Shown here: positions 2,906-42,748 of the stretch, in pieces
Layout: each line of letters begins with the position of its first letter
Numbering within the stretch: position 1 is the stretch's first letter
From: Anaerolineaceae bacterium
Lineage (GTDB): Bacteria; Chloroflexota; Anaerolineae; Anaerolineales; Anaerolineaceae
Direction: 5' to 3'
Assembly (NCBI GenBank): GCA_016841365.1
Contig: JAENZI010000001.1
Span: 248,001 to 312,000, forward strand
DNA: 64,000 bases
Program-made: the position numbers and the translations under genes
Notes under the pieces: model-generated
What the model was told of the DNA's origin: nothing
Database searches by the model: none
The model's input: only the letters and a program-made list of their open reading frames with translations

Positions 2906-4813
2906 ATGGATATTCGCAGGATCCTGACAATACTTAAGCGATGGTCTTGGTTGCTGATTCTGGGCGCGGTTCTTGGCGGTGTGTTAGGCTATTATTTCAG
3001 TGCCAAGCAAACACCAATGTATCGTACCAGCACCCGTTTTGTCGTTCTGAGACCCGCTTCCACGGGTTATTATGATTATTATGCCTACATAGATTACCAA
3101 CAGTGGATTTCTACCTATGAACAATTGCTGTCTTCTGAAGCTTTGTTGACGCAGGTGTCTGAGGAAGTAGGGTTCCCGGTTTATGCCGGCCAGGCAAATG
3201 CTGAACAGATCGAAGAGACGCAATTTGTGCGCCTGACAGTGACCCATGAGAATCCTGAAAGAGCGGCTTTGGTCGCTAATACGCTGGTCAGTGTGTTGAT
3301 TGAGCAGAATGAGCAACTGCAATCTGTGCGTTATGCAACGTCTGAGCAGAACATGCAACTGCGTGCCGACCAGGCGTTAGAGCAAATGCAGATCTTGCAG
3401 AATCAGATACAAGACCTATCTGTGACGATCTTAGATGATCAGATTGCAGAAGTTCAGACACAAATAGACGATCTGCAAACACAGGTTACCGATCTTGAAT
3501 TTAAATTGTCCGGGATCGATCCTTTGCTGGCGACTGAAGAACAACAATTGCAGCGTTTGCAATACCAGGCAGAGCTTGATCAGATTGAGCCTTTGTTAGC
3601 TTTATATCAAGAAATCTACACGGAACTGGTTGTGATGGGCGAACCGATGCAAAGTGAAACCACTTCATCTACCCAAATCAATCAACTGGAAAGAACGCTT
3701 GATCTTTATGAGCAAATTTATTTTTCAAGCATCAACAGCCTGGAAACTTTGAATTTGACACGTCTGCAGAGTTCACCGAATGTGGTCCAGGTAGAACCGG
3801 CGACTGTTCCCGGCCGGGCATTTTCACCGCGGTCTTTTGAAACGGGTGGTTTATATGCTGCAGCAGGTTTGGTGGCAATGGCAGGTGTGGTGTTCTTTAT
3901 TGAATATCTCGATGATACGATCAAGACGCCAGATGATGTCAAAAACATCCTGGGCCTGCCTGTGGTTGGGTTTGTGGCGGATATGAATAGCGGATCGAAG
4001 AAGAACAAGTATGACGGTAACGGCATTTTTGTGGCGGACCATCCGAGATCTCCGATTTCTGAGGCTTTCCGCTCAATGCGGACCAGCCTGGAATTTTACA
4101 GCGTTGATCAACCCCTTCGGCTGATTTTGGTGACCAGTTCAGGCCCTGAGGAAGGAAAGACCACGATAGCCTCAAATTTGGCCGCAATTTTAGCCAAGGG
4201 GAATAAGCGTGTGTTGTTATTGGATGCTGACCTCAGACGACCGCATGTGCATTCATATCTGAATTTATCCAACAGGGTGGGTCTTTCTGATCTAATCCGG
4301 GGAAGGATTGAGTTTGCTGATGTGCTCCAGACCTATGATGGCCTTGAGAAATTAAGCATTATCACTTCGGGCAGTCTGCCTCCAAATCCGGCTGAGCTGC
4401 TGTCCAGCAACAAAATGATCAGCATTATTGAGGATCTAAAGAAGAAATTTGACATCATCGTGATGGATACCCCGCCAGCAATTGTGACCGACGCGCAGGT
4501 TTTGGCTTCAAAGGCTGATGGCGTGATTTACGTTCTCCAGCCAGGGAAAACCCGCGCTGTTGCAGCGAAAATGCCGCTGGAAGAATTTGATCGGGTTGGC
4601 GCCAATATGATTGGGGTGATCATGAATCGAATTCCCCGCAGCCGCGGTTATTATTATGGCGGATACTCCTACTACGCACCAAGCTATTCCAGCAAGGATA
4701 AGTATTATCGTTTTGGGGATGGCGATGATTTAGATGAGGGGAATGAAGATGTGGATCGAGACACCAAACCATTTAATCAGAACGATTCCTCAACCCCAAA
4801 AACTGACTCATAG
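2906..4813 (+). CDS. Polysaccharide biosynthesis tyrosine autokinase (Wzz domain plus BY-kinase)
   Basis: A 635-residue inner-membrane protein controlling polymerisation and export of exopolysaccharide. Two transmembrane helices (about residues 12-30 and 315-335) flank an extracytoplasmic Wzz/GNVR region with coiled coil rich in Gln and Leu. The cytoplasmic part is a bacterial tyrosine kinase: Walker A GPEEGKTT near residue 413, Walker A' LLLDADLRRP near 436, Walker B IIVMDTPP near 517. The tail holds a tyrosine cluster (RGYYYGGYSYYAPSY) that is the expected autophosphorylation site. Fusion of the Wzz and kinase parts is the proteobacterial Wzc type, not the split CpsC/CpsD form. The matching phosphatase is two genes downstream. 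Confidence 0.92.
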   Translation: MDIRRILTILKRWSWLLILGAVLGGVLGYYFSAKQTPMYRTSTRFVVLRPASTGYYDYYAYIDYQQWISTYEQLLSSEALLTQVSEEVGFPVYAGQANAEQIEETQFVRLTVTHENPERAALVANTLVSVLIEQNEQLQSVRYATSEQNMQLRADQALEQMQILQNQIQDLSVTILDDQIAEVQTQIDDLQTQVTDLEFKLSGIDPLLATEEQQLQRLQYQAELDQIEPLLALYQEIYTELVVMGEPMQSETTSSTQINQLERTLDLYEQIYFSSINSLETLNLTRLQSSPNVVQVEPATVPGRAFSPRSFETGGLYAAAGLVAMAGVVFFIEYLDDTIKTPDDVKNILGLPVVGFVADMNSGSKKNKYDGNGIFVADHPRSPISEAFRSMRTSLEFYSVDQPLRLILVTSSGPEEGKTTIASNLAAILAKGNKRVLLLDADLRRPHVHSYLNLSNRVGLSDLIRGRIEFADVLQTYDGLEKLSIITSGSLPPNPAELLSSNKMISIIEDLKKKFDIIVMDTPPAIVTDAQVLASKADGVIYVLQPGKTRAVAAKMPLEEFDRVGANMIGVIMNRIPRSRGYYYGGYSYYAPSYSSKDKYYRFGDGDDLDEGNEDVDRDTKPFNQNDSSTPKTDS

Positions 4814-30966: not shown

Positions 30967-31353
30967 ATGGATTATGAGACCCTGTGTGATTACCTGGAAC
31001 GAAAGATTGGCGCCCGGCGGGACATGCCCTTTGGAGTAAATACGCTGGTATTTAAGGTTTTAGATAAGATATTCGCCTTGGTGGCGTGGCAGTCAGAGCC
31101 GCTGAGCATCTCACTGAAGGTTGACCCCATCGAGGGGATGTTCTTGTGCCGGCAATATGAAGCGATTGTGGCCGGTTATCACCTGAATAAGAAACACTGG
31201 ATCACCGTGACGCTGAATGGCAGTGTTCCGGATGAAGCACTGCGTGCAATGATGGATGATTCTTATGCCTTGGTGATCAAAGGGATGACACGCAATGCTA
31301 AAAGCAAATTGAGAAAAATGGGATGGCAGGAAGATGGCAAAGAAACTGGATAA
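30967..31353 (+). CDS. MmcQ/YjbR-family protein
   Basis: A 128-residue protein of the MmcQ/YjbR fold, often annotated as DNA-binding because of a CyaY-like surface. Typical segments are LPFGVNTLVFKV-like at the N-terminus (here DMPFGVNTLVFKV), FALVAW, ISLKVDP, and the helix ending YHLNKKHWITV. Function not established. Its end overlaps the next start by 20 bases, so the genes are coupled. Confidence 0.8.
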   Translation: MDYETLCDYLERKIGARRDMPFGVNTLVFKVLDKIFALVAWQSEPLSISLKVDPIEGMFLCRQYEAIVAGYHLNKKHWITVTLNGSVPDEALRAMMDDSYALVIKGMTRNAKSKLRKMGWQEDGKETG

Positions 31354-31888
31354 GATCATTGTGATTGACCTGGAGGCAACCTGCTGGGAAGGGGCGCCGC
31401 CTGAGGGCGAAGAGAGCGAGATCATTGAGATCGGGTTATGTGTGCTGGATGTTCCAACTGGCGGACGATCTGACAAGCGCGGGATATTGGTCAGGCCGCA
31501 GCGCTCTCAGTTGAGTAATTTTTGCATCAGACTGACCACACTCACGCCGGAGATGCTGTCGACAGGCCTGGCATTTGCAGAGGCTTGCACGCTGCTGCGG
31601 GATGAATACGATTCCTGGCGATATACCTGGGCAAGTTATGGCGATTATGACCGTTTGATGTTAGCGGCGCAGTGTGAGGCATGGGGTGTTCCCTATCCCT
31701 TTGGCAGCTCACACATCAATGTCAAGAATCTGCTGGCATTGCATTTAGGGCTGGAGCACGAGGTAAATCTTGTGCGGGGGACAGCGTTGGTCGGCTTACC
31801 CTTTGAGGGCACGATTCACCGCGGGGTTGACGACGCCTGGAATATTGCGGCGGTGCTTTCCAGGGTGTTGCTTGGGCGGGATCGGTAA
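31334..31888 (+). CDS. DEDDh 3'-5' exonuclease (ERI1/KapD-like)
   Basis: A 184-residue exonuclease. VIDLEATCW carries the first Asp and Glu, YGDYDRLML the middle Asp, and HRGVDDAWNIA the final His and Asp of the DEDDh active site. The family includes Eri-1 and KapD proteins acting on RNA or single-stranded DNA ends. Its last 93 bases, which include the essential HRGVDD segment, overlap the 3' end of the convergent polymerase gene. Confidence 0.87.
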   Translation: MAKKLDKIIVIDLEATCWEGAPPEGEESEIIEIGLCVLDVPTGGRSDKRGILVRPQRSQLSNFCIRLTTLTPEMLSTGLAFAEACTLLRDEYDSWRYTWASYGDYDRLMLAAQCEAWGVPYPFGSSHINVKNLLALHLGLEHEVNLVRGTALVGLPFEGTIHRGVDDAWNIAAVLSRVLLGRDR

Positions 31889-34102
31889 AGACAACTGGCT
31901 GAGATCGGTGTGCACTTTTTCAGTCAATGTTTCTTCGTCCAGCCCCCAGGCTTCCAGCACAATGCCTGCCGCCCGCAAGAGCAAGCGCTGATAGCGTGCA
32001 ACATCCACGCTGCGCGGGTTAGGTTTCTGGGGCCTATCCCAGGCGAAAACGCCGGGTTTGCCCAGCGTGTAGAGGAAAGGCACGCGCTGCCCGGGGCGCA
32101 AGTCTTTGCCGGCGGCTTTGAGTTGCATCACCGCCCGGGCCGCGGGGGAGGGTGTGCGGTAGGCTTCCAGTTTGCGCCCCAGCCGCTGACGCACAAGCAG
32201 TTCTGAAAGGCCAATATCGCCCTGGTGCAGCGCCCTGATGCGCTTTTGCAGATACGCCACCGCGTCGGGCAGTGCTGTTTCGGGATTCTCTTTGCTGGCG
32301 AGCAATTCCAACAGGTGCATCTGTGTTTCGGCTACAAACGGCGTGCTGTCACACCGCCGGGCGTCTATCCCGCGGACCTTGATTGAACCGTCCTGAAAAA
32401 CGCCAAAATAGCGGTTAGCCACCGGACGCTGTTTGTTTTGGCGCGAGCCGACGAACACCACCCAGCGGTAGATACCGTCCAGTGAGATGGGCAGGCCGGT
32501 CCTTTCCTGAATTTCGAGCAGCAGGGGGTTGATGTCTTTCGGTTGTGTATTGTCGGGGTGCTGCACCCATAAGCCATCCACATAAAGCTGAATGACCTTA
32601 TAGCCCATATCTTCCGCGGCTTCTTTGGCACGCAGCAGCGCCTCACGCCCATACGCGGTGACGGCCTGGTGCGCTTCGATCCGGCCGAAGCGGGCATTTT
32701 TATAGCCCAGATAGCCGAAACAGGTCACCAGCAGCCACTTGAGCGCGGAAGCCCGACGTTTAAAATTTTTGCGGAAGGGGTCCCAGTGGGGTGTGCAGGC
32801 CAGGTGCTTTTTCATCTCCACCCGTTTTTCCAGCAAGGGGCGCAGCGCCTTGGGGATCAGCCCGTCTTGACTGGTGTCGATCGCCAACCCCAGTGCTGGC
32901 ACAATATTGTCAGTGTCGGGCTGGGTGAGGATCGTCTCGGGGGAGATGTTGAAGTGGACCATGATTGCGGGGTAGAGCGAAACAAAATCGATCTCTGCCA
33001 CATTTTTGTGCACGCCAATCTGCGGCTGGTAAACCAGCCCGCCCTGGTCAGCGGTGAACAGGTCTGCCGCGGGTTTGAGCATTTCAGCCTGCTGTTTTTG
33101 CCAGGGCACGAGAATACCCTCGCGCAGGGCGGTCAGCATCTCAATGGATGAGATGCCTGTGCCGGGTGAAACGCGGGAGGAGGTTTGCAGGGGCAGTGAA
33201 GTCACCCGGCTGACCTCGATGGTGCCGTCCAGTTCATAATCTTTCCAGAGCACAGCGTTCTGCCGGTCGATGTGACAGCGCCCAAACAGGTGAATTTGCT
33301 GGCCGCGGAAGACAATCTGGCCATATGAAAAATAGGTGCGTTCTTCATGCCATGCCACACCGCGCCCCGCTTCACGGTTCAGCCCCAGCGGGATATGGTG
33401 CTTTTCGGACTGTTGGAGCAGTTTTGGCAGCAGCCAGGTGTCACCGTAATCGGTGAGCAGCACATCGGGGTCGTGGCGCTGGATCAGGGCGCGCAGGTTG
33501 ACCAGCAGCGGGCGCCAGGTTTGCAGGCTGAGTTGGTATTGATTGCCCTCCATGCTGATATTGAGATAGTGGGGGCGGGCGTGGTGCGGGGGCACATCCG
33601 GCGCCAACGTCATGGTGCGTAAGGGGATGGGGGTTGGTTTCAGCGTCCAGGCATCCTCAAGCACATCAATTTCTTTAAGCTGGCCAGTTTCGTCTGCCAT
33701 GACCTGGCAATGCGCCAGCGGGAAAGCGCCTGTTTCGGCTGCAAAACGCAGCGCGATGTGCAGGTCTGCATCGGCATATTCAAGGTGCGGGAACTCGGCG
33801 GCTGTTTGGCTGAAGACTTTACGCGCCTCGTAGGGGTTTTGCACGGTGATTCCCAACGCGGTGACCGATTGACGTTTGAAGACGTCCATCCGCTGTGTGC
33901 GGCTCAGGCTGATCTCGGTAGGGCGGCGGTTGAGATGCTGCCAGAGCGCTCTTAACTCAGCATCACTTCCCAGGGCGTAAAAGGTGACCGGGAAATGCCG
34001 CGTCAGGCGGTGGCGCGCACCTGACTCATCGATGAAATACAACACCAGGCCTTCGCGCGGGTCTTCGAAAAGATCGAGCAGCCAGCCGGCAAACTCAAGC
34101 AT
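31796..34102 (-). CDS. B-family DNA polymerase of the PolB2 type with altered motif C
   Basis: A 768-residue B-family polymerase. Motif A DFVSLYPAIM (Asp372) and a motif B-like segment KWLLVTCFGYLGYKNARFG (Lys455 onward) are clear. Motif C reads YVDGLWV (507-513): the first Asp (509) is kept but the second catalytic Asp of the usual DTD is Leu511. The exonuclease part (about 165-300) also lacks a clear DxE motif. Altered catalytic motifs are known for the PolB2 group, whose archaeal members (Dpo2) are linked to damage tolerance. The C-terminal tail has QLSLPI (736-741), like the clamp-binding hexapeptide of Hda. It is third in an operon with a small protein (8-base overlap) and a RecA-like protein, preceded by an SOS-box-like site. 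Its 3' end overlaps the exonuclease gene by 93 bases. Confidence 0.82.
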   Translation of the reverse strand: MLEFAGWLLDLFEDPREGLVLYFIDESGARHRLTRHFPVTFYALGSDAELRALWQHLNRRPTEISLSRTQRMDVFKRQSVTALGITVQNPYEARKVFSQTAAEFPHLEYADADLHIALRFAAETGAFPLAHCQVMADETGQLKEIDVLEDAWTLKPTPIPLRTMTLAPDVPPHHARPHYLNISMEGNQYQLSLQTWRPLLVNLRALIQRHDPDVLLTDYGDTWLLPKLLQQSEKHHIPLGLNREAGRGVAWHEERTYFSYGQIVFRGQQIHLFGRCHIDRQNAVLWKDYELDGTIEVSRVTSLPLQTSSRVSPGTGISSIEMLTALREGILVPWQKQQAEMLKPAADLFTADQGGLVYQPQIGVHKNVAEIDFVSLYPAIMVHFNISPETILTQPDTDNIVPALGLAIDTSQDGLIPKALRPLLEKRVEMKKHLACTPHWDPFRKNFKRRASALKWLLVTCFGYLGYKNARFGRIEAHQAVTAYGREALLRAKEAAEDMGYKVIQLYVDGLWVQHPDNTQPKDINPLLLEIQERTGLPISLDGIYRWVVFVGSRQNKQRPVANRYFGVFQDGSIKVRGIDARRCDSTPFVAETQMHLLELLASKENPETALPDAVAYLQKRIRALHQGDIGLSELLVRQRLGRKLEAYRTPSPAARAVMQLKAAGKDLRPGQRVPFLYTLGKPGVFAWDRPQKPNPRSVDVARYQRLLLRAAGIVLEAWGLDEETLTEKVHTDLSQLSLPIPPKQHPGKHRRNIPGVVNPAVNRALKG

Positions 34103-34358
34103 GCATTTCCTGTAATGCTTCGATGATCTTACGCAGACGTGTGACCTCTTTATGCTCTTCGAGCAGCATAGCCATCAGGAAGGTTTCGAAGGGCAGGGCA
34201 TGGGCGGCATAGGCTGCGGCAGAAATGTGTTTTTGCGCGGCCGTGAACAGGTCGTCAAAAGCAAGCTGATCGCTTCGGCGCAGGGCACGCCGGAAGCGCG
34301 CCAGCGAGGCCTCTTCGTTGAGCATGAGTTGTGTTGCGGAAGGAAGTGTGCGTCCCAT
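34095..34358 (-). CDS. 87-residue helical protein of the polymerase operon
   Basis: An almost wholly helical, charged protein (RFRRALRRSDQLAF and LEEHKEVTRLRKIIEAL). No known domain is recognised. AAGGAGAACC precedes the ATG. Its end overlaps the PolB start by eight bases and it begins 38 bases after the RecA-like gene, so it belongs to the same operon and may be an accessory subunit bridging the other two proteins. Confidence 0.72.
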   Translation of the reverse strand: MGRTLPSATQLMLNEEASLARFRRALRRSDQLAFDDLFTAAQKHISAAAYAAHALPFETFLMAMLLEEHKEVTRLRKIIEALQEMHA

Positions 34359-34396
34359 AAGGGTTCTCCTTGTGTTTGTTTGGTGATTGGATACGG

Positions 34397-34945
34397 TTAA
34401 AATAACGGTAATTGGTGCTCAGGTAAGGTGGGTGTTTCAAGCTCCCAGATGTCGTGCGCGGTTGAAAGCAGCGGCGTGAGAAGCTGCTCGTTTTCTTCAG
34501 CAGCGGTCGTGCGCGTGCGCGCCCAGACGGCAACAGGGGCATGTTCACTGAGTCGCCTGAGCAGCCCCAGGCTGTTTTCGAGCAGGCGCTGGCGTTTGGA
34601 AAAATTGACGTTCTCATCCAGGAAAGTTGAGAGCATATCCAGGATGATGATGGGCGTGCCATCTCTTGGCAGTTCCGCCAGCATGGCAACCATCTGGTAG
34701 CAGGTGAAGGCGCGTGAGAGCCAGATCTGTTTCAACGCGGCCTGCACATGATGGGTTTGCCGCCGGAGTTCACGAGCGAGGGTATAGCCGTCAAAGCAAT
34801 TGCCGCCGTCAACCACGATCACCCGCCCGCGCAGTGCCAGGGCGGCTAACATTGACATTAAGCTGTGACGGACTCCTTTGGGGGCAACGACCAGCGAAAT
34901 CTTGCCCGTTTTAGGGAGCGGGAAAGGGGTAATGTGTTGTTCCAT
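34397..34945 (-). CDS. RecA/RadB-like protein without a Walker A motif (ImuA-like role suggested)
   Basis: A 182-residue RecA-fold protein. ISLVVAPKGVRHSLM stands where Walker A should be but lacks GKT, so ATP binding is doubtful. VIVVDGGNCFDGY, SRAFTCYQMV (like the RAF segment of RadA/RadB) and Walker B-like PIIILDMLSTF follow. The chain ends exactly in QLPLF, which fits the sliding-clamp binding pentapeptide QL(S/D)LF. Size, missing ATPase motif and neighbouring polymerase recall ImuA and SulA-like partners of mutagenic polymerases. The promoter holds TATACT and a GAAC-N4-GTGC site. Family placement is by motif only. Confidence 0.65.
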   Translation of the reverse strand: MEQHITPFPLPKTGKISLVVAPKGVRHSLMSMLAALALRGRVIVVDGGNCFDGYTLARELRRQTHHVQAALKQIWLSRAFTCYQMVAMLAELPRDGTPIIILDMLSTFLDENVNFSKRQRLLENSLGLLRRLSEHAPVAVWARTRTTAAEENEQLLTPLLSTAHDIWELETPTLPEHQLPLF

Positions 34946-34958
34946 GCCTGTATGTTAC

Positions 34959-34977
34959 AGTATAGAACAAATGTGCG
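34959..34977 (-). promoter_or_regulatory. SOS-box-like operator with -10 box, RecA-like/PolB2 operon
   Basis: Plus-strand AGTATAGAACAAATGTGCG. AGTATA (34959-34964) is TATACT, the -10 box, on the minus strand; GAAC-AAAT-GTGC (34965-34976) directly upstream is one base from GAAC-N4-GTTC. Sixteen bases, including the -10, are shared with the site at 40736-40753 apart from one change. The 5' leader would be only about six bases. Confidence 0.6.
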
Positions 34978-35028: not shown

Positions 35029-35439
35029 TTAATCTTCGGTCCACTCGCTGAAGTCCCAATCTGCTAAGGCCTGGCGCAGTTCAGCCTTGCTGTGCAGGTC
35101 AAAACGATGGAGCAGGTTGCGCATGTGGGCTTTGACGGTCTGGGGGGAGATCTGCAGGCGGGCTGCGATCTGGCGGTTGGTGAAGTTGAGGCAGGCCAGC
35201 GCGGCAACCTGTTGTTGACGTGGTGTCAAGGCTCGCCAGCGCTCCAGGTGTGTTTCCGCCACCTGGCGGTCAACCAGGGCGCTTTCCAATAAGTCCTGGG
35301 CAGCCTCTTGCAGGGAGGCATCCGCGCTGGCAGCGATTTGCGCCAGGTATTGCGCATGAGCCGGGTTCAGTTCCAATACCAGTAACTGGGTGCGTTCCGC
35401 GGGGTTGATCCAATGTAAAAATTGTTTGAGCAGTGTCAT
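35029..35439 (-). CDS. LuxR-type helix-turn-helix regulator
   Basis: A 136-residue protein. The C-terminal part is a LuxR/GerE DNA-binding domain: LTPRQQQVAALACLNFTNRQ, then IAARLQISPQTVKAHMRNLL. The N-terminal 60 residues are helical and contain no receiver or sensor domain I recognise. The gene's promoter contains a perfect GAAC-N4-GTTC palindrome overlapping the -10 box and the start codon lies six bases after it, implying a leaderless mRNA under damage control. It sits 84 bases upstream of the RecA-like gene, in the same direction. Its targets are unknown. Confidence 0.8.
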   Translation of the reverse strand: MTLLKQFLHWINPAERTQLLVLELNPAHAQYLAQIAASADASLQEAAQDLLESALVDRQVAETHLERWRALTPRQQQVAALACLNFTNRQIAARLQISPQTVKAHMRNLLHRFDLHSKAELRQALADWDFSEWTED

Positions 35440-35445
35440 AACATT

Positions 35446-35470
35446 AGTATAATAGAACTTGTGTTCTATT
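35446..35470 (-). promoter_or_regulatory. Perfect SOS-box-like palindrome with overlapping -10 box
   Basis: AATAGAACTTGTGTTCTATT (35451-35470) is a perfect 8-4-8 inverted repeat with the GAAC-N4-GTTC core of Gram-positive-type LexA boxes. The minus-strand -10 TATACT (35446-35451) touches it, and the regulator's ATG follows after six bases. Confidence 0.72.
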
Positions 35471-35496
35471 ACAAGAGGGAGTTTTCTTCTCAGCGT

Positions 35497-40735: not shown

Positions 40736-40753
40736 AGTATAGAACAAATGTTC
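40736..40753 (-). promoter_or_regulatory. SOS-box-like operator with -10 box, rSAM/DUF6504 unit
   Basis: Plus-strand AGTATAGAACAAATGTTC. TATACT (minus strand, 40736-40741) is the -10 box; GAAC-AAAT-GTTC (40742-40753) is a perfect core. The ATG (40727-40729) follows the -10 after six bases (ATCCTT), so the mRNA should be leaderless. Confidence 0.7.
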
Positions 40754-42076: not shown

Positions 42077-42748
42077 ATGTGCGGACGGTTTACACTTACG
42101 CTTGACCCTGGAGAAATTCAGGAGTTATTGAACCTGGGACCTTTTGTTCACATCGTTCAGCCGCGATACAATATTGCGCCATCCCAGCCTGTGCCAATTG
42201 TTAAAGACGCTCAAGAACGATCTGTTGAGCTTTACCAATGGGGATTGGTCCCTTTTTGGGCGGATGACCCGAAAATCGGTTATAAAATGATCAATGCGCG
42301 GTCAGAAACGATTGATGAAAAGCCTTCATTTCGTGCGGCTTTTAAATATCGGCGCTGTTTGATCCTTGCGGATGGTTTTTTTGAATGGCATGCGTCAGAA
42401 AAGGGTGCCTCAAAAACGCCCTATCTATTTAAACTGAAGAACGATCATCCCTTTACCTTTGCAGGGCTTTATGAGCATTGGCAGTCACCCGAGGGCGGTG
42501 AACTGCACACCTGCACAATACTTACCTGCCCGCCGAATGAGCTGGTGAGTGATTATCATAACCGGATGCCGGTGATGCTGGGAGAAGATGCCCGTTGGGC
42601 ATGGTTGGACCAGGAACTTGAACCACCAGCGTTGTTGGATTTATTGTCGCCCTACCCGGCAGATGAGATGAAGTGTTTCCCGGTTTCACGCGAGGTGAAT
42701 TCACCTCAAAATGACCGGCCGGAAGTTCTGGAACCCCAAACAATGTAG
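42077..42748 (+). CDS. SRAP-family protein (SOS response-associated peptidase, YedK/HMCES)
   Basis: A 223-residue SRAP protein. It begins MCGRFTL, so Cys2 becomes the reactive N-terminal residue that crosslinks to abasic sites in single-stranded DNA. PRYNIAPSQPVPIV, INARSETI (the Asn and Glu region) and CLILADGFFEWH follow, with HNRMPVML near the C-terminus. The family protects abasic sites during replication. It lies near the SOS-box genes, but no GAAC-N4-GTTC site is visible in its own upstream region. Confidence 0.93.
   Translation: MCGRFTLTLDPGEIQELLNLGPFVHIVQPRYNIAPSQPVPIVKDAQERSVELYQWGLVPFWADDPKIGYKMINARSETIDEKPSFRAAFKYRRCLILADGFFEWHASEKGASKTPYLFKLKNDHPFTFAGLYEHWQSPEGGELHTCTILTCPPNELVSDYHNRMPVMLGEDARWAWLDQELEPPALLDLLSPYPADEMKCFPVSREVNSPQNDRPEVLEPQTM

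Follow-up and report, generated by a model that had tools for sequence, protein, structure and literature searches.

What kind of DNA polymerase system is encoded by a small operon in the genome of an Anaerolineaceae bacterium (GCA_016841365.1, 97.99% complete), and under what control does it stand? The operon lies in a stretch of 64,000 nucleotides (nt) of contig JAENZI010000001.1 (positions 248,001 to 312,000), referred to here as the window. A first-pass annotation had described it as linking a RecA/RadB-like protein, an 87-residue protein and a B-family polymerase. We find that this three-gene system is the already described PolB2 mutasome, iRadA-PPB2-PolB2, and not a relative of ImuA-ImuB-DnaE2. 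We further consider it very probable that the system is a LexA-controlled PolB2 mutasome in which PolB2, held in place by a PPB2 trimer together with iRadA and linked by the latter to the beta clamp, extends primers past lesions. All of the annotated open reading frames (ORFs) were confirmed; they are collinear and read from the minus strand, with an 8-nt overlap between the 87-amino-acid (aa) gene and polB2:

34397 to 34945, minus strand: iRadA, a protein of 182 aa with a Rad51/RadA fold and no Walker A (sequence, profile and fold search)
34400 to 34414, minus strand: predicted beta-clamp motif QLPLF at the iRadA C-terminus (as defined in PMC11791011)
34095 to 34358, minus strand: PPB2-like small protein of 87 aa with an MGRT N-terminal arm (from MGRT, position and length)
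31796 to 34102, minus strand: polB2, a B-family polymerase of the PolB2/G2 type, 768 aa (Pfam DNA_pol_B; NCBIfam PRK05761; alignment to 5mdn_A)
32573 to 32590, minus strand: altered motif C QLYVDG, residues 505-510 of PolB2, with Tyr507 in place of the first Asp and Asp509 kept (alignment to 5mdn_A)

The polymerase was found to match Pfam DNA_pol_B (2.1e-32) and the 5mdn_A profile (2.8e-55), and its best NCBIfam matches are the PRK05761 type B polymerase models (6.7e-111, under the curated cut-off). In the alignment, VIYGDTDSLFV of 5mdn_A stands opposite VIQLYVDGLWV, so the altered motif C noted in the first-pass annotation is confirmed: the first Asp is replaced by Tyr507 while the second, Asp509, is kept. 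The YVD of this motif is constant in 10/10 sequences, and Asp372 of motif A is retained. At the exonuclease site, DIE of ExoI is opposite APD, and the Asn and Asp of ExoII are opposite Trp and Leu. Given that the residues of both ExoI and ExoII are replaced, proofreading is predicted to be lost. Asp279-Arg280, also constant in 10/10, fits the D(K/R) motif published for PolB2 and, from its position before the palm, probably corresponds to it. Among the B-family polymerases of bacteria, PolB2 makes up group G2, in which the exonuclease is inactive (PMC12926913).

The RadA-like protein of this system, iRadA, is recognized most clearly by its fold. Single-sequence searches gave weak matches that stay under the cut-off, to Rad51 in Pfam (E 0.045) and to RadA in NCBIfam (E 0.0024), a profile built from 11 relatives found RadA chains (best E 1.2e-4), and a Foldseek search with the AlphaFold model (pLDDT 81, pTM 0.79) returned RadA, DMC1 and RAD51 as the best structures (top RadA E 2.2e-8, TM 0.64). 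The protein corresponds to the Rad51-like core and has no N-terminal domain and no ATPase site. The stretch where Walker A would be expected reads KISLVVAPKGV, with no GKT or GKS, in agreement with the RecA/RadB-like protein without Walker A that had been proposed. Its C-terminus carries HQLPLF in 10/11 iRadA sequences (the window and its close relatives; L012 has QPALF instead), and the clamp pattern Q-x(1,2)-[LMF]-F occurs in 21/35 iRadA C-termini of the class survey described below.

Searches with the 87-aa protein gave no match above cut-off in Pfam or NCBIfam and nothing credible among PDB sequences (best E 0.42), and the protein had initially been assigned to no recognized family. That view has to be revised: the protein fits the described PPB2/arCOG07300, as it begins with MGRT, a start that it shares with all 10 close relatives (11/11 with the window) and that is found in 29/34 proteins in the class survey.

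Is this arrangement conserved? A scan of genome contigs yielded 11 relative loci, most of them from Anaerolineaceae, and the same three-gene order was found in 10/10 loci having sequence upstream of polB2; the remaining locus, L013, is without upstream sequence and its polB2 is split over two frames. Across the class, a profile search found PolB2 in 42/396 Anaerolineae genomes. For the survey of operons, upstream sequence was taken for 38/47 PolB2 match rows, the window's own row and 8 fragments or second pieces being left out, and more than 2 kb of upstream sequence was present in 36; two loci are too short (G247b and G130) and one, G207, is without a detected iRadA or HTH (helix-turn-helix) gene, giving n = 36 or 35. 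The two sets overlap, with L004 and L003 appearing to equal the survey genomes G351 and G243. In 33/36 surveyed operons, iRadA and then PPB2 precede polB2 on the same strand, so that the search for this linkage in related genomes that the first-pass annotation had suggested bears the linkage out. The three exceptions are an iRadA-PPB2 fusion, judged by eye, in G320, and operons in which PPB2 (G204) or iRadA (G207) was undetected. In a draw of 400 genomes from the phylum, PolB2 was found in 24, every one listed in the window's class or closer, and none was listed outside the class.

Two neighboring genes may be mentioned beside this layout. A convergent gene for an RNase_T-type exonuclease on the plus strand (31334-31888) shares 93 nt (window 31796-31888) with the 3' end of polB2. 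The other, a gene starting with MCGRFT (window 42077-42748) at a distance of about 7 kb, we take to be SRAP/YedK-like. SRAP genes have been described as enriched near polB2 (PMC11791011).

The published system provides a close match. For the iRadA-PPB2-PolB2 mutasome this gene order is described as the only bacterial one, and the complex is presented as the first prokaryotic translesion polymerase of the B family to be multimeric (Timinskas 2025, PMC11791011). The present locus resembles it in its genes, their order and sizes, the MGRT arm, the missing first Asp, the inactive exonuclease, a RadA without ATP site, the iRadA beta-clamp motif and a link to the SOS response. This link takes a different form in the two cases: lexA is enriched near the published mutasomes, while here the operon carries a LexA-type box. 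The same three families are linked in archaea and several bacteria, some with lexA (PMC4104785). Of these, the Leptospirillum locus LFML04_0990-0993 shares PolB2, arCOG07300, an inactive RadA and the SOS association but contains lexA itself, whereas lexA of the window's genome lies on another contig, C9, and the box is the link. The Sulfolobus Dpo2 operon again has a PolB2 with altered motif C, PPB2 and an inactive RadA, together with damage induction known from the literature; there, in an archaeal setting, Orc1/Cdc6 enrichment and PCNA motifs (PMC11791011) take the place of the LexA-type box and the beta-clamp motif. Further, the published PolB2 mutasome has been likened to Pol V (UmuD'2C-RecA), which also joins a RecA-family partner to a small subunit with an arm reaching the active site but differs in its Y-family catalytic subunit, its ATP-competent RecA and UmuD' as the small subunit (PMC11791011).

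Set against the main-text description of that mutasome (PMC11791011), two features of the locus differ: its first gene is of the LuxR HTH type, and a LexA-type box stands at the head of the operon. The term luxR is absent from that main text, and no LexA box or HTH gene of PolB2 operons came up among the titles and abstract openings of the papers searched. Within the texts covered, the HTH leader and the use of a LexA box to control the operon appear to be new. The elements concerned are:

35446 to 35474, minus strand: promoter-like hexamers TTGTAA (35474-35469) and TATACT (35451-35446), assigned by eye, flanking the LexA box
35455 to 35466, minus strand: LexA box without mismatch, GAACACAAGTTC, within the 17-nt promoter spacer (sequence; survey position)
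35029 to 35439, minus strand: lead gene, LuxR/NarL-type HTH protein of 136 aa with a C-terminal WDFSEW tail (Pfam GerE 7.5e-14)
34965 to 34976, minus strand: weaker second LexA-box-like site GCACATTTGTTC directly before iRadA, one mismatch from GAAC-N4-GTTC

The pattern GAAC-N4-GTTC is the LexA box type of Bacillus subtilis and Gram-positive bacteria (PMC3323433). In the window's own genome, a perfect box GAACGTATGTTC is located upstream of lexA and the box GAACATATGTGC, which has the same change as GCACATTTGTTC but on the other half, upstream of recA. An operon-head box with at most one mismatch was found in 32/35 surveyed operons, compared with 3.4 expected from shuffles and 3.1 from same-locus windows, and a perfect one in 25/35, compared with 0.11 expected. 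The layout of hexamer, box and hexamer is similar in several of these operons, and the two close relatives that lack the HTH gene have this promoter-box unit immediately ahead of iRadA (perfect in L005, one mismatch in L012). These data suggest that the promoter of the Anaerolineae PolB2 operon looks directly SOS-controlled, presumably through binding of LexA.

The first-pass annotation had also proposed an SOS-box-like promoter, placing it at the site directly before iRadA. That site is real, with one mismatch, but the main perfect box at 35455-35466 was missed. Among the close relatives, the site before iRadA is perfect in L003, L004 and L008, has one mismatch in L010 and is lacking in L006, L007, L009 and L011; in the survey, only 6/27 HTH-led operons have an internal site, located between the HTH gene and iRadA, that comes within one mismatch of the pattern, and we reject the site before iRadA as the operon's main SOS element.

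Other boxes in this genome were observed in passing. The window holds one more perfect LexA-type box (40742-40753), which overlaps the start of a gene (40747-39554) that is radical-SAM/HhH-like by eye, and a similar-looking gene is found upstream of polB2 in L005, L010 and L011. On contig C16 a small gene, HTH-type by eye, lies behind a perfect LexA-type box (L027 1088-1556), and on contig C15 two one-mismatch boxes precede a possible secreted lytic-transglycosylase-like gene, again by eye (L025 994-1667).

Taken together, we propose the following mechanism for the LexA-controlled mutasome. DNA damage would activate RecA, LexA would be cleaved and transcription would start from the promoter at 35446-35474, so that the HTH protein, iRadA, PPB2 and PolB2 would be made from one transcript. 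A PPB2 trimer and iRadA would then hold the polymerase, with the MGRT arm of one PPB2 entering the PolB2/iRadA cleft and PolB2 binding iRadA in a Rad51-filament-like manner, and the iRadA C-terminus QLPLF would dock on the beta clamp. PolB2, predicted to be without proofreading, would extend distorted primer ends past lesions, allowing survival at the cost of mutation. We infer the complex, the clamp docking, the extender activity and the mutagenesis from the published family; LexA binding and co-transcription are likewise presumed here. In Sulfolobus, a PolB2 without the first Asp incorporates nucleotides as actively as the replicase and serves as an extender (PMC8764526), and in S. islandicus Dpo2 (PolB2) is induced by damage and alone accounts for targeted mutagenesis (PMC7390963).

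Several observations weigh against this interpretation. Motif C has Tyr here, in place of the Ile (PMC11791011) or HxxxD pattern (PMC8764526) reported for Sulfolobus PolB2, and the proposed activity and complex draw on archaeal data and published models; in the literature looked at we saw no bench experiment on a bacterial PolB2. PPB2 is identified from its position, length and MGRT, and the clamp pattern is missing from 14/35 iRadA C-termini. PolB2 itself is patchy in the class (42/396 genomes), and no operon-head box was found in 3/35 operons (G340, G202 and G352). Finally, the box motif is not enriched genome-wide: the window's genome has 97 matches to GAACNNNNGTTCTA with at most one mismatch, compared with 230 for a reversed control pattern, and among 17 genome stretches around such sites several sites lie inside genes (for instance L019, L028, L030 and L033). 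For this reason we reject SOS control argued from the motif alone; the weight of the LexA-box case comes from its conserved position and not from the frequency of the motif.

What, then, does the lead gene do? A fold search with its protein returned response-regulator HTH structures (best E 4.4e-4) using a model with pLDDT 75.7 and pTM 0.55, the five models spanning 57.5 to 75.7. The N-terminus may be ribbon-helix-helix-like, a fold for which Pfam gave no support. The gene occupies the same place in 8/10 close relatives with upstream sequence and is first, on the same strand, in 27/36 surveyed operons, 26 of which have a box ahead of it. At least 17/27 of these HTH proteins have the WDFSxW tail pattern when the last 30 residues are scanned, a lower bound since WDFSDW of G358 sits outside them. 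Our best guess is a regulator of the second tier that is produced along with the mutasome.

It could also be a chance neighbor or a local autoregulator unrelated to mutasome function, which we regard as possible but on the unlikely side. Such an origin would be consistent with its being absent, reversed or not found in 9/36 operons and with the occurrence of unlinked copies. By eye, the HTH protein is mostly of one type in families f1, f2 and f38, and in f25, f42 and f46 it is mainly the HTH domain that is common, the N-termini differing and some looking membrane-anchored. Against this stands its first place behind a box in most operons, while the next long ORF further upstream mostly varies among families (by eye). 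Further, an alignment search (E <=1e-14) found the main HTH type in 24/396 genomes, 22 of them PolB2-positive compared with 2.5 expected (P 1.8e-22, a value that ignores genome relatedness and is inflated by it; G362 was scored PolB2-positive by a fragment). Of the two PolB2-negative carriers, G388 has iRadA on the same short contig as the HTH gene.

The unlinked copies also occur behind LexA-type boxes, perfect in G271, G340, G027 and G320 and with one mismatch in G362, G202 and G352. In the four genomes with perfect boxes, the gene that follows codes for a TIR-domain protein (TIR_2, E 2.7e-22 to 1.7e-26). The stand-alone HTH-TIR loci are:

L111, 2228 to 3217: HTH-TIR locus with a perfect box at the HTH start
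L116, 2551 to 3506: HTH-TIR locus with a perfect box at the HTH start
L117, 2679 to 3684: HTH-TIR locus with a perfect box at the HTH start
L115, minus strand: HTH 3736 to 4149 and TIR 3177 to 3674, with a perfect box

PolB2 and TIR cassettes are both found in G340, G027 and G320, while G271 is without a PolB2 match. It is possible that the HTH-TIR pair is an SOS-induced TIR module. Given the boxed unlinked copies and their TIR neighbors, the HTH protein therefore seems to accompany several kinds of damage-induced cassette under LexA control. One could go further and hypothesize that it is a fourth SOS part, a regulator released from LexA that would time or select between PolB2 bypass and cell death, possibly as self-harm, by the TIR cassette, or, as a variant, that it would bind the mutasome or its DNA via the C-terminal WDFSxW tail; we consider this quite unlikely. 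An assignment to anti-phage defence was dropped; the PADLOC matches were of the polymerase domain to a homing-endonuclease-labelled model and of the HTH protein to CARF-named models.

The first-pass annotation had left two roles for the altered polymerase, a lesion-bypass enzyme or a scaffold for another polymerase. The latter would make PolB2 catalytically dead and have it, like ImuB, bring in a polymerase such as a second DnaE under a LexA box. The loss of the first Asp of motif C would fit, and the window's genome offers a candidate: it has two DnaE-type genes, and the second, of 1036 aa and on another contig (L018 625-3735, contig C17), contains QLALF and shows, close to where it starts, a LexA-type box with one mismatch (L034, about 1044), in a genome from which ImuB appears to be absent. 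The HTH-led PolB2 operon of G382 shares its upstream region, which holds two box-like sites, with a divergent DnaE-type gene (L071, G382:C59:216500-221333). For the second DnaE of the window's genome the label DnaE2 was rejected because its top score is to a DNA polymerase III alpha model and because, passing only the superfamily model TIGR00594, it stays under the cut-offs of all equivalog or subfamily models listed as well as of the error-prone-polymerase model NF004225.

Speaking against a scaffold, the second Asp of motif C and Asp372 of motif A are kept, and the role becomes less likely because the Sulfolobus PolB2 that lacks the first Asp is an active extender (PMC8764526). To place PolB2 among the other polymerases, we compared 37/42 PolB2-positive genomes (5 fragment-only genomes left out) with 23 chosen PolB2-negative ones. 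A second DnaE is not general, as 21/37 PolB2-positive genomes have a single DnaE-type match. No Y-family match was found in 6/37 PolB2-positive and 6/23 PolB2-negative genomes, and three genomes listed at 99% completeness (G202, G263 and G280) carry PolB2 together with a single DnaE-type match and lack any Y-family match. We thus regard a dead scaffold as very unlikely and keep the bypass or extender role.

ImuA-ImuB-DnaE2 is an SOS-induced system with a RecA-fold accessory protein and a clamp-binding accessory subunit, and it includes ImuB, a Y-family homologue without activity. The likeness to its logic noted in the first-pass annotation is partly justified, in that the locus is a mutasome-like SOS-type operon with a RecA-family and a small partner, while the published analogy is to Pol V. 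Strict membership in that family, for which the SOS-type promoter and the RecA-fold and clamp-binding partners might speak, has a negligible probability and is rejected, since the cassette polymerase is B-family and not DnaE2, the operon has no Y-family gene, ImuB was not found in the window's genome, where the sole Y-family (IMS) match is DinB elsewhere, and ImuB-like genes beside DnaE (a weaker IMS match near the DnaE match) exist separately in the class in G254, G085 and G002, in the first two together with PolB2.

The locus is a well-defined bacterial case of PolB2, with a LexA-type-box promoter, complete partners and a predicted clamp motif. In G202, G263 and G280, PolB2 looks like the only recognized translesion polymerase. 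The occurrence of HTH-led PolB2 operons and of TIR genes behind LexA boxes raises the question of whether SOS mutagenesis and self-destruction may share a regulator.

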